Program-made: the position numbers and the translations under genes
In this document: positions 13,125 to 63,774 of the stretch, in pieces
Layout: each line of letters starts with the position of its first letter
Position numbering within the stretch: position 1 is the stretch's first letter
Notes under the pieces: generated by a model
Databases searched by the model: none
The model's input: only the letters and a program-made list of their open reading frames with translations
What the model was told of the DNA's origin: nothing
NCBI GenBank assembly: GCA_000961575.1
Contig: LADP01000018.1
Location: 124,001-188,000, forward strand
Origin: Peptococcaceae bacterium BRH_c8a
GTDB lineage: Bacteria; Bacillota; Desulfotomaculia; Desulfotomaculales; Desulfallaceae
Length of the DNA stretch: 64,000 nt
Direction: 5' to 3'

Positions 13125-13829
13125 TTGCGCGGTAAAGAGGGTTTTTTAGCGGGAGCCAGAGACATTGCGCCCATTCTACTTGGAGTTGTCCCTTTTGCCA
13201 TGGTATCAGGTATTGCCGCAGTCGGAGCGGGCTTGTCCATGGCTTCGGCCATGGGCATGTCGGTATTTATTTTTGCCGGTGCCGCCCAACTGGCGGCGGT
13301 GCAATTAATTGGCATTGGCGCTGCCCCGCTAGTCATAATTAGTACTGCACTGATCATTAACCTGCGGTTTGTAATGTACAGCGCCTCAATTGCCCCTCAT
13401 TTTCAGCACCTGACCCAAAGATGGAAATGTTTATATGCCTACCTGCTTACAGACCAGGCATATGCGGTTTCCATCAGCCGGTTTTCCATTGACCGGCACA
13501 TAGACCGGGGGTGGTACTACTTTGGGGCATCTTTTGTACTTTGGGTGGTATGGCAGATATTCACCCTGACCGGGATACTGCTGGGATCGGGGGTACCAAA
13601 AAGCTGGGGCCTCGATTTTGCTGTACCCCTGACGTTCATGATACTGCTTGTCAAGGCCCTTGGGGATAATGCCACGGTGGTGTCTGCGCTGGTTGGCGGT
13701 ATCATTGCCGTTGCTGCAAAGCCGCTCCCCTACAACCTGGGGCTGTTGGTGGCAGCCTTATGCGGTATCGGGGCAGGGCTGTTTTTGGAAAAGAGTTTGG
13801 AAAAAAAATCTGCCGCAGAAAACATTTAA
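13125..13829 (+). CDS. azlC: AzlC family branched-chain amino acid permease
   Basis: A 234-residue membrane protein with the AzlC features ARDIAPILLGVVPFAMVSG, GAAQLAAVQLIG, INLRFVMYSASIAPHF and the LTDQAYAVS loop. With AzlD it forms an exporter of branched-chain amino acids or analogues in the cell membrane. The TTG at 13125 is used because GGAGG lies 10 bases upstream; an earlier TTG in frame has no binding site. Probably co-transcribed with the aminotransferase and azlD. Confidence 0.88.
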   Translation: MRGKEGFLAGARDIAPILLGVVPFAMVSGIAAVGAGLSMASAMGMSVFIFAGAAQLAAVQLIGIGAAPLVIISTALIINLRFVMYSASIAPHFQHLTQRWKCLYAYLLTDQAYAVSISRFSIDRHIDRGWYYFGASFVLWVVWQIFTLTGILLGSGVPKSWGLDFAVPLTFMILLVKALGDNATVVSALVGGIIAVAAKPLPYNLGLLVAALCGIGAGLFLEKSLEKKSAAENI

Positions 13830-61015: not shown

Positions 61016-62143
61016 GTGCAGCGTGAAGCAAAACTCGTGCAAGGTAATGAAGCTATTGCGCACGGGGCCATTTATGCCGGAGCCAGGTTTTACGCCGGTT
61101 ACCCCATCACACCCTCCTCGGAAATTGCCGAGGAATGCTCCAGGCTAATGCCCAAAGTGGATGGCGTATATTTGCAAATGGAAGATGAGATAGCCAGTAT
61201 TGCGGCTATTGTGGGAGCCTCACTGGCCGGCGCAAAGTCTTTTACCGCTACCAGCGGCCCGGGCTTTTCGTTAATGCAGGAAAATCTGGGTTTGGCGGTA
61301 ATGGGGGAAGTTCCGTGCGTTGTAATTAATGTGCAGCGTTCCGGCCCCAGTACCGGACTGGCCACCAAACCGGCCCAATCTGATGTAATGCAAATCAGGT
61401 GGGGTAGACATGGGGATCAATCAATAATTGCCTTGACACCGGCAACGGTGAAGGAATGCTTTACCTTGGCTGTTCAGGCTTTCAATTTTGCGGAAAGATT
61501 TCGCGTGCCGGTAATACTGGCCGCCGACGAAATAGTAGCCCATATGCGTGAGAACATTATTTTCCCGGATCCGGGTGAAGTGCAGGTTATCGACAGGAAA
61601 AAACCCACGGTGCCTCCGGAGCAATATAAGCCATTTGAACCCGAGTCCGACGGAATTGCACCCCTGGCTGCTTATGGCAGCGATTACGTGTATCACGTAA
61701 CTAGTTCCATGCATGGTCTGGATGGTTACAGTAACAATGACCCGGCCAACGCCCAGTGGAGAGTGGCCCAGTTGCACAGAAAACTGGAACGGTACCGGGA
61801 CGAGATAGTGATGACCAAAAGTTATGACACCGATGACGCAGAAGTGCTGCTGATTGCCTTTGGGGCAACAACCCGCGCGGCCAGGGCGGCAGCTTTGGAA
61901 GCACGCAAAAACGGTATTAAGGCGGGAGTACTGCAGTTGATAACCCTGTGGCCGTTTGCGGACAAGGAAATTGCGGCCCACGGTAAAGGCGCCAAAAAAA
62001 TAGTGGTTGTGGAAATGAACTACAGCGGCCAGGTGACCGGTGAGGTTCGACGCATCCTGGGGCCGGAAAAAGATATTACTCTGGTGAACAAGTACAACGG
62101 CCAAATCATCACTCCGAAGGACATCCTGGAGGTACTTAAATAG
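61016..62143 (+). CDS. korA: 2-oxoacid:ferredoxin oxidoreductase alpha subunit (KorA)
   Basis: A 375-residue subunit: LVQGNEAIAHGAIYAGARFYAGYPITPSSEIAE, MEDEIASIAAIVGASLAGAKSFTATSGPGFSLMQENLGLA and VEMNYSGQVTGEVRRIL match KorA-type alpha subunits. With KorB and KorC it decarboxylates a 2-oxoacid (2-oxoglutarate is the best-known substrate) to an acyl-CoA, reducing ferredoxin. GTG start with AAGGGGG upstream. The usual small ferredoxin-like delta gene is not adjacent. The gap to korB is filled by heptanucleotide repeats. Confidence 0.92.
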   Translation: MQREAKLVQGNEAIAHGAIYAGARFYAGYPITPSSEIAEECSRLMPKVDGVYLQMEDEIASIAAIVGASLAGAKSFTATSGPGFSLMQENLGLAVMGEVPCVVINVQRSGPSTGLATKPAQSDVMQIRWGRHGDQSIIALTPATVKECFTLAVQAFNFAERFRVPVILAADEIVAHMRENIIFPDPGEVQVIDRKKPTVPPEQYKPFEPESDGIAPLAAYGSDYVYHVTSSMHGLDGYSNNDPANAQWRVAQLHRKLERYRDEIVMTKSYDTDDAEVLLIAFGATTRAARAAALEARKNGIKAGVLQLITLWPFADKEIAAHGKGAKKIVVVEMNYSGQVTGEVRRILGPEKDITLVNKYNGQIITPKDILEVLK

Positions 62144-62331
62144 GAGTCAGGAGTCAAATGACAAGTGACAAGTGACAATTGACAATTGACAAGAGGCAAG
62201 AGGCAAGAGGAAAGAGGCAAGAGGCAAGAGGAAAGAGGCAAGAGGCAAGAGGCAAGAGGCAAGAGGCAAGAGGCAGTCTAAAGATAGAAGCCAGAAGACA
62301 GTAGACAGTAGACAGTAGAAAGTAGGCAGAA
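62143..62331 (+). repeat. 27-unit heptanucleotide repeat mosaic
   Basis: From the last base of the korA stop codon, 27 consecutive 7-base units keep one register: GGAGTCA x2, AATGACA, AGTGACA x2, ATTGACA x2, then 12 units of AGAGGCA (two are AGAGGAA), then degenerate units and GACAGTA x3, GAAAGTA, GGCAGAA. A further four units of the complementary style (TTCTGAA, TTCTGAC, TCCTGAT, TACTGAA) lie at 62358-62385. It resembles short tandemly repeated (STRR) heptamer arrays. No CRISPR features. Confidence 0.9.
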
Positions 62332-62419
62332 TGAGAGATGGTTTACGTCTTGTATTATTCTGAATTCTGACTCCTGATTACTGAATACCAATAAAAAGTT
62401 TTGTAAGAGAGGTGTTATC

Positions 62420-63250
62420 GTGTCGCACGCAACAGGCGTCGGGTATTTAAAAGACGGATGCTTGCCCCATATGTGGTGCCCGGGGTGTGGTAACGGCATA
62501 GCGTTGGCGAGTATGCTCAGAGCCTTTGAGGAACTGGGCTATAAAAAGAACGAAACGGTAGTCGTTACCGGAATCGGGTGCTGGGGAAAAACAGACGATT
62601 ATCTATTAACCAACGCACTGCACACCACACACGGGCGCGCCCTGGCCTTTGCCAGCGGTGTTAAGGCCTATAACCCCAAATTGAATGTTGTTGTACTGAT
62701 GGGTGACGGCGATAGCGTTACCATCGGAGGCAATCACTTTATCCATGCCGCCAGGCGGAACATAGACGTTACCGCCATCGTTTTAAACAATTACAACTAC
62801 GGTATGACCGGCGGACAATGTTCGGGCACTACTCCGTCGGAAAGATACACCAGCACCACTGTTTATGGTAACCCGGAAAGAGGCTTTGACATTTGCGCTC
62901 TGGCCGAGGTTGCCGGTGCCAACTACGTGGCCCGCGGAACGGTATACCATGGCTGGGATTTAAAGGAGCATATGAAAGAAGCCCTGGGTAACAAAGGCTT
63001 TTCAATGGTGGAAGTGGTTAGCCCATGCCCCACTCACTATGGCAGGAATAACAGCATGAAACAGGGCGTGGAAATGCTTAAGTGGCTCAAAGAAAAAGCT
63101 GTGAGTAAAGAAAAATACGCCCAGTTGACCGACCCTGAAAAAGAAGCTTATTTTGTAATTGGCAAAATGGTTGATAAAAATGAACCCGACTTTTCTACCC
63201 GGTACGAGCAAATTAGGGCCAGGGCGCTGGAGGGTGGTGCAAAAAGGTGA
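62420..63250 (+). CDS. korB: 2-oxoacid:ferredoxin oxidoreductase beta subunit (KorB)
   Basis: A 276-residue thiamine-diphosphate subunit: cluster cysteines in MWCPGCGNG, GIGCWGK and SPCPTHYGRNN, and the TPP/Mg motif MGDGDSVTIGGNHFIHAARRNIDVTAIVLNNYNYGMTGGQ. It carries the catalytic centre and a [4Fe-4S] cluster. GTG start with GAGAGGTG upstream. The KorC start overlaps its stop by four bases. Confidence 0.93.
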   Translation: MSHATGVGYLKDGCLPHMWCPGCGNGIALASMLRAFEELGYKKNETVVVTGIGCWGKTDDYLLTNALHTTHGRALAFASGVKAYNPKLNVVVLMGDGDSVTIGGNHFIHAARRNIDVTAIVLNNYNYGMTGGQCSGTTPSERYTSTTVYGNPERGFDICALAEVAGANYVARGTVYHGWDLKEHMKEALGNKGFSMVEVVSPCPTHYGRNNSMKQGVEMLKWLKEKAVSKEKYAQLTDPEKEAYFVIGKMVDKNEPDFSTRYEQIRARALEGGAKR

Positions 63251-63774
63251 AAGAACAATATGAAGTAATCATGGCTGGTTCCGGCGGCCAGGGTTTGGTG
63301 GTTTGTGGTATTATATTGGCCCAGGCAGCCATACTGGAAGGCCAGAATGCGGTGCAGACCCAATCTTACGGCATCGCCAGCCGGGGCGGTTTTTCCAAGT
63401 CCGAAGTGATTATCAGCAGGAACGAAATTATGTTCCAGCAGGTTCAGGAGCCCGACGTGATTCTGGCACTAACCGAACAGGCCATGAAAATGTACGCTTC
63501 CGGTGAGCCTGATAGGCCGGTTTTCTATGACACTACCCTGCTGGAGAAACGCAGCGGTCGCAATTTGTACGGTTTTCCCTTCACCGAAATGGCCAGCTTG
63601 CTAGGACATGTTGGTACCGCCAATATAATTGCCCTTGGCGCTATGGCAACGCTCACGGGCATGATTAAAACCGATAGCCTGGCTACTGTTCTGACCAGGC
63701 GGTTTGCTGGGAAAGTGGCCGATATGAATATCAAAGCCCTGCAAGCAGGTATTGAATTAGTTACACAAGACTGA
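63247..63774 (+). CDS. korC: 2-oxoacid:ferredoxin oxidoreductase gamma subunit (KorC)
   Basis: A 175-residue subunit: VIMAGSGGQGLVVCGIILAQAAILEGQNAVQTQSYGIASRGGFSKSEVIIS is the characteristic N-terminus. It contributes to CoA binding and completes the KorABC complex. GTG start overlaps the korB stop (GTGA), so translation is coupled. Confidence 0.92.
   Translation: MKEQYEVIMAGSGGQGLVVCGIILAQAAILEGQNAVQTQSYGIASRGGFSKSEVIISRNEIMFQQVQEPDVILALTEQAMKMYASGEPDRPVFYDTTLLEKRSGRNLYGFPFTEMASLLGHVGTANIIALGAMATLTGMIKTDSLATVLTRRFAGKVADMNIKALQAGIELVTQD

Follow-up and report, generated by a model that had tools for sequence, protein, structure and literature searches.

The heptamer array between the korA-like and korB-like genes of Peptococcaceae bacterium BRH_c8a is very probably the left arm of an ORF-less, MITE-like, nonautonomous derivative of an IVS/IVP-type mobile element. 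The array lies in the window, i.e., the whole stretch of 64,000 nucleotides that was analyzed (contig LADP01000018.1, positions 124,001 to 188,000). Two loose ends meet at this locus. One is where the phase-locked heptamers scattered over cyanobacteria and numerous other phyla come from; the other is what is done by the IVP/S23 protein, which since the 1990s has had no identity beyond that of an ORF in 23S rRNA insertions. Mobile IVP elements with heptamer arms, if such they are, would account for the patchy spread of the repeats and would give a context to genes annotated as encoding a "four helix bundle protein." For the kor operon itself, the message is modest, the array probably being a passenger.

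Structure of the korA-korB junction

From position 62143 onward, the window contains an unbroken series of 27 7-mers that keep one phase: GGAGTCA (twice), AATGACA, AGTGACA (twice), ATTGACA (twice), a block of 12 AGAGGCA or AGAGGAA units, GTCTAAA, GATAGAA, GCCAGAA, GACAGTA (three times), GAAAGTA, and GGCAGAA. Identity at lag 7 was 151/182 (0.83), compared with 0.23 to 0.29 at lags 3 to 6 and 8 to 12, which bears out the initial annotation of a 27-unit, single-phase, period-7 array of the STRR type. The transition from AGAGGCA to GACAGTA passes through weakly matching units (adjacent matches of 1/7, 3/7, 5/7, and 5/7), and the korA stop codon (TAG, 62141 to 62143) shares its last base with the first base of the array. 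As a tandem series of 7-bp units held in phase between two genes, the array is an STRR-type repeat. The length of the array was equalled by only one other stretch, a CTGACTA array, in 0.86 Mb of the genome. That array (L332; G000 C5:168738-169097) is nearly perfect and has approximately 50 units. Contig C7 (G000 C7:1-178) starts within a CTGACTA array; long arrays thus probably break assembly in this draft of 48 contigs.

The second, inverted-style patch that the same annotation had placed just before korB was also present (Table 1). Its statement that the other junctions of the operon overlap was correct for korB and korC but not for the upstream side, where a gap of 17 nt precedes korA. The alpha subunit alone passed its NCBIfam cutoff, and the korB and korC assignments are best matches below the cutoff. 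No IVP-family ORF was found at the kor element, and we therefore filed the kor copy as a derivative rather than as a full member of the IVS/IVP class.

Table 1. Features of the kor locus in the window and Y1/RAYT-type transposase genes elsewhere in the genome
Feature	Position	Strand	Basis or remark
korA-like 2-oxoacid:acceptor oxidoreductase subunit alpha	61016..62143	+	NCBIfam NF006412, E=2e-156, above cutoff
Left arm, outer end: GGAGTCA twice, with predicted pairing to TGACTCCTGA in the right arm	62143..62156	+	Sequence, RNA fold
Left arm, expanded part: in-phase heptamers with changing word (xxTGACA, AGAGGCA/AGAGGAA, GACAGTA)	62157..62327	+	
Conserved core AGAATGAGAGATGGTTTACGTCTTGTATT	62328..62356	+	Matches element core AGAATGAGAGAACGGTTTATCGTCTCGAATT; model R1
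Right arm ATTCTGAATTCTGACTCCTGATTACTGA (second patch of the initial annotation)	62357..62384	+	
korB-like subunit beta, GTG start, AGAGAGGTG upstream	62420..63250	+	Not a gene of the element
korC-like subunit gamma	63247..63774	+	4-bp overlap with korB (63247-63250)
Y1/RAYT-type transposase gene L096	C25:81534-81863		Flanking palindrome TGGTGCCAGGTGTTGCAAG...
Y1/RAYT-type transposase gene L097	C21:82373-82708		Flanking palindrome GGGGTCAGGCCCGGCATAACTGC...

Insertion relative to other kor operons

The element was absent at kor in all six relatives compared. Within the same genus, the korA and korB genes of G002 (83% and 82% identical, respectively, to those of the window) overlap by 4 bp and contain no heptamers between them; the korA-korB gap is 20 nt in G007, G008, and G010, 140 nt in G009, and 12 nt in G024, all likewise without heptamers. 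Given the 4-bp overlap or 20-nt gap in relatives, these gene junctions show that the kor element is an insertion relative to the relatives. The initial annotation had held that a related strain with overlapping korA and korB and no array would count against the feature. Such an arrangement does exist in G002; it denotes an insertion, and the feature itself is real. The 140-nt gap of G009 (L040) holds a different small palindrome, GGGGAGTTGAATGCCCCCC, indicating that the korA-korB junction tolerates insertions.

A dispersed element family and its predicted folding

The array region had 41 matches in this genome and belongs to a dispersed family. Within 458 kb picked around BLAST matches, there were 45 period-7 segments versus 0 to 2 segments at unrelated periods, and most of the former were two mutually inverted arms flanking a short core. 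Alignment of the cores gave the family consensus (AGTAGTC or AGGAGTC)n - AGAATGA(G)AGAACGGTTTATCGTCTCGAATT - ATTCTGAATTCTGACTCCTGAATTCTGA, which the kor copy fits with an expanded left arm (62143 to 62327), a core, and a right arm. Model R1 matched the kor copy, itself among the 15 sequences from which R1 was built, at 62311 to 62383 (65.7 bits; E=2.6e-18). A strict period-7 scan gave 16 loci and was too insensitive for diverged arms; R1 was used instead for a census of 864 kb chosen without regard to matches (i.e., whole stretches of four contigs plus the window), which contained approximately 27 elements at E<0.01. By extension from this census, the whole genome perhaps holds approximately 130 elements.

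The arm pattern CTGANTNCTGANTNCTGA had 442 matches in this genome and the reversed pattern had none; its distribution in relatives was patchy, with 248 matches in one congener and 0 in two others. The elements lay mostly between codirectional genes, at a frequency not clearly above background (11/15 versus 282/425). Left arms exceeded 60 nt in 6/32 cases and right arms in 0/32, which is only suggestive of a bias of long expansions toward the left arm. With inverted termini, no transposase gene, and multiple dispersed copies, the kor element has these attributes of a MITE. Searches of phage records gave no match for the element and none for IVP.

Folding predictions paired GGAGTCAGGAGTCA with TGACTCCTGA at kor (-50.9 kcal/mol; z, -2.2; 3/200 shuffles were as good). 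In the predicted fold of the kor transcript, GGAGUCAGGAGUCA pairs with the right arm, and the mRNA can form a hairpin of core and outer arms from which the extra heptamers are looped out. Hairpin-capable inverted terminal arms, as in IVS/IVP elements, are therefore predicted for the kor copy. Other single copies likewise folded better than their shuffles, with z values of -5.6 and -6.3 but also -1.1. RNAalifold found no consensus structure on the aligned cores, and R1 is consequently a sequence-only model.

A hairpin that separates korA from korB, genes that overlap or almost abut in relatives, might also be expected of a device that regulates the kor operon and is maintained by selection (i.e., an mRNA processing site, a translational uncoupler, or a length-variable switch), particularly as the hairpins of 23S rRNA IVSs are RNase III substrates (PMC4990558). 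We regard such a device as unlikely because the same family occupies many unrelated sites, the element is absent at kor in the six relatives, no Rfam match was obtained in 61900 to 62600 up to E=5, and the element shows no sign of conservation at kor. Nothing was found in support of a kor-specific spacing switch or regulator; the initial annotation's ideas of whole-unit change and RNA folding held up, but it had not recognized the array and the second patch as the two arms of one inverted-repeat element that is related to IVP and has many copies. Most likely, the kor element is a tolerated passenger, and its transcript may possibly be processed by RNase III, by analogy with 23S rRNA IVSs.

Association of heptamer arms with IVP genes

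Several comparisons of flanking regions show that heptamer arms of this kind are associated with genes of the IVP family (PF05635). The right-arm 21-mer ATTCTGAATTCTGACTCCTGA occurred in at least 117 stretches among 84,980 named genomes scanned (estimated chance expectation, approximately 0.1), including those of Nostoc, Pelotomaculum, Desulfotruncus, Armatimonadetes, Ignavibacteria, Deltaproteobacteria, Thiotrichaceae, and others. Several matches were preceded by an ORF ending in ...EVSKLLEAYSQAILNSDS*, i.e., the C terminus of the four-helix-bundle IVP, and the IVP profile placed IVP beside the 21-mer in L144, L128, L166, and L151. The right-arm stretch of complete elements encodes the IVP C terminus (...ILNSDS-stop), and this coding role may be the reason for the strong conservation of that part of the arm.

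PF05635 loci were collected in 41 relatives and in 398 genomes of the phylum; 46 had full flanks. Period-7 flanks (at least 20/28 within the adjacent 200 nt) were detected at 30/46 IVP loci, at 0/4 Avd-like loci, and at 1/28 korB control loci, the single case being that of the window itself; clearly inverted flanks were detected at 36/46 IVP loci versus 0/28 korB loci. After removal of a duplicate rRNA copy, 29/45 IVP loci had the period adjacent to the gene versus 5/45 at a distal position; some of these five distal matches are probably neighboring IVP elements. The best period over the 45 loci was 7 in 30, 8 in 4, 5 in 1, and 11 in 1, and no clear short-period array was present in the other 9 (about a fifth). 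Loci with period-8 arms, and one with period 11, form a minority (L226, L243, L245, L248, L308; L268).

The arm units vary among genomes (e.g., GTAGTCA, TTCGAAG, GTGAAGG, AATTCGG, and ACCCGTG), and the two arms match as inverses within one IVP element (median score, 21, versus 10 between elements). The arm words of L217 and L218 are the same as those of the kor family. Three IVP elements with heptamer arms (L220, L222, and L225) are classic IVSs within 23S rRNA, as judged by eye from their flanks. Beyond this phylum, IVP flanks were sampled from plasmids, one viral contig, and named contigs matching the ATTCTGAATTCTGACTCCTGA 21-mer. Heptamer arms flanked 10 of 12 IVP genes on cyanobacterial plasmids (words include AAAGCTA, GGGAGTA, GGTGACA, and GGGTGTA), with one of the other two having period 8 and one being imperfect.

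Among the 398 genomes of the phylum, the CTGA arm pattern occurred in 15/59 IVP-bearing versus 22/339 other genomes (p=5e-5). The backward-read control pattern was present at least four times in just four genomes, all IVP-bearing, at least two of which have related arm units (AGCTGGT-like in L249 and AGCTNTC-like in L267). The idea that the heptamers serve as a three-frame stop-codon device was rejected, as AGAGGCA, TTCGAAG, and GGAGTCA contain no sense stop. IVP domains were also observed within open frames of 1775 (G271:C1:175017-175259) and 1753 (G055:C1:47499-47705) residues, which represent either an in-frame IVP element in a big gene or an overlapping frame.

Filled and empty sites on cyanobacterial plasmids

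Near-identical filled and empty plasmid sites show that IVP and both arms arrive together as one unit, often at operon stop/start junctions, and, if the elements are mobile, make the mechanism testable. One pair of strains that differ by a single IVP element is Trichormus variabilis ATCC 29413 (plasmid C) and Nostoc linckia NIES-25 (plasmid2). Trichormus and Scytonema plasmids (L306 and L307) carry IVP with both arms at a site where the element is absent in six approximately 98.5% identical plasmids. Two of these six, L316 and L317, were read at the site; the block (428 bp in L306 and 414 bp in L307) is missing from them as one unit, and GTAAT, which flanks the block, is present once only in the empty allele. 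Between L306 and L307, the left arm differs in length by exactly two heptamers (14 bp), which is whole-unit change seen directly. At the same site, Brasilonema (L323) has an ORF-less armed element of 82 bp and Nostoc C052 (L321) has a truncated element.

Further filled and empty pairs were L305/L322 versus L319/L367/L368, L320 versus L319, L314 versus L365/L366, L313 versus L364, and L308, at a cas10-cmr3 junction, versus L318. The gaps at the empty sites are approximately 13, 3, -1, 3, 40, and 12 bp, i.e., narrow gene junctions in 5/6, as at korA-korB. Target duplications were short and nonuniform (GTAAT at one site, probably TTCTA at a second, and at most ATG at a third); none was readable at kor. 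The cas10-cmr3 junction of a type III-B CRISPR operon (L308, L318, and L369) is empty in Picosynechococcus PCC 7002 and holds an IVP element in PCC 7003; in Synechocystis PCC 7338, the same junction holds a Uma2 endonuclease gene. Two IVP elements, one built of GGTGACA and the other of AAAGCTA units, also lie between cas6 and cas4 on cyanobacterial plasmids (L310 and L311), and CRISPR operon junctions thus recur as targets.

IVP-less arms are more numerous than arms with IVP and are the only kind in some genomes, as would follow if preexisting heptamer arrays came first and preferentially captured IVP genes. This order of events appears quite improbable given that the empty alleles lack arms and gene alike, as read for L306, L305, L320, L314, and L313 against L316/L317, L319, L319, L365/L366, and L364, respectively.

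Probable derivation of the short copies

The complete element is approximately 0.4 kb long and consists of a tandem array of short period, with units that almost always measure 7 bp, one PF05635 gene (IVP/S23, a four-helix bundle), and an inverted array. No intact IVP gene was found in this genome (G000), so its copies would have been mobilized either at an earlier time or from another source. An armed element of this genome (L022:15201-15490) encloses a decayed IVP gene, whose alignment score against the L258 IVP gene was 68.5, compared with a shuffled maximum of 18, and korB loci were at the null in this test. The short core GAGAACGGTTTATCGTC corresponds to the IVP start GAGAACCGG fused to GCGGTTTATCGTC from further in, a fusion consistent with one deletion between CGG repeats. 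At kor, the core matches the IVP gene start (AGAATGAGAGAACCGG) joined to an internal IVP segment (GCGGTTTATCGTCTATC). The kor copy thus shares sequence with IVP-bearing elements in its core and arm words, and the decayed IVP gene lies in a sister element.

From the shared sequence and the decayed intermediate, we infer that the short copies arose by internal deletion of the IVP gene, which would have left the arms and a short core. One such ORF-less copy would then have entered the korA-korB junction, where the left arm would have grown to 27 units by slippage gain of whole heptamers, the phase being kept while the word mutates.

Slippage of this type is the sole process required if the kor array is an ordinary STRR or microsatellite that was grown locally by the polymerase from the end of korA, with no mobile element involved. 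Whole-unit length change is real, as the 14 bp between the left arms of L306 and L307 demonstrate, and many bacteria have an excess of period-7 arrays (PMC4692102). Nonetheless, a purely local origin is very improbable: the same core and inverted right arm recur at dozens of unrelated sites, the core matches the IVP gene start, and neither the inverted partner nor the shared core can come from slippage.

Relation to known systems

As an IVS/IVP derivative, the kor element most closely recalls the 23S rRNA IVSs with S23p/IVP, which have inverted arms, tandem heptamers of variable number, and a hairpin. In the IVS of Coxiella burnetii, tandem GACAGAT heptamers stand upstream of the S23p gene and number two or three, varying among strains; mobility of IVSs has been suspected, and they are treated as selfish or horizontally acquired (PMC4990558). 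The kor copy differs from these IVSs in that it sits between protein genes rather than in 23S rRNA, lacks an IVP gene, belongs to a many-copy dispersed family, and has a far longer left arm.

STRR arrays resemble the kor array in being intergenic and of period 7, with in-phase word variants, a patchy distribution across distant phyla, and an occasional location within operons (e.g., pecE-pecF in Nostoc). Arrays of GGGGATT in Nostoc and GGGAATC in Xanthomonas (PMC4692102) and of TAACTGA in Beggiatoaceae (PMC4679880) were described without an origin, and the Beggiatoaceae report makes no mention of S23 or 23S. Such reports consider the arrays by themselves, with a role in G4 formation or in translation being proposed, whereas here the arrays are arms of an element with a core and IVP relatives. 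In the open-access literature searched, we found no paper that joins heptamer arrays to IVP or IVSs, and priority is thus uncertain.

A broader proposal, to which as a whole we give somewhat less than even chances, is that IVP elements are a widespread autonomous mobile class whose sole gene encodes a four-helix-bundle protein without known transposase or nuclease activity, that they insert at operon stop/start junctions, that a large share of the dispersed bacterial STRRs derive from them, and that the period of 7 is set by whatever machinery copies or lengthens the arms. IVP and the diversity-generating retroelement (DGR) accessory protein Avd are homologous four-helix bundles (weak bAvd match; solved IVP relative 2gsc; PMC10053308), although none of the Avd-like loci had heptamer arms. 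This relationship hints that IVP elements perhaps move by an RNA/cDNA path with a reverse transcriptase acting in trans, which is a fair guess and no more.

MITEs are similarly short and noncoding, with inverted termini, and are internal-deletion derivatives of a longer element. They differ from the present family in that its parent encodes IVP and no known transposase, its termini are variable tandem arrays, and there is no fixed target duplication. REP/REPIN elements moved by RAYT (Y1 tyrosine transposase) are likewise small, dispersed, intergenic palindromes, and the genome has two Y1 transposase genes, but these are flanked by other palindromes of their own (TGGTGCCAGGTGTTGC... and GGGGTCAGGCCCGGCATAACTGC...) rather than by heptamer arms, the gene between heptamer arms is PF05635, and no RAYT partner was found for the heptamer element, so that an origin of this kind is barely credible. 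The L096-type palindrome also occurs directly beside a heptamer element in L021, near position 13151.
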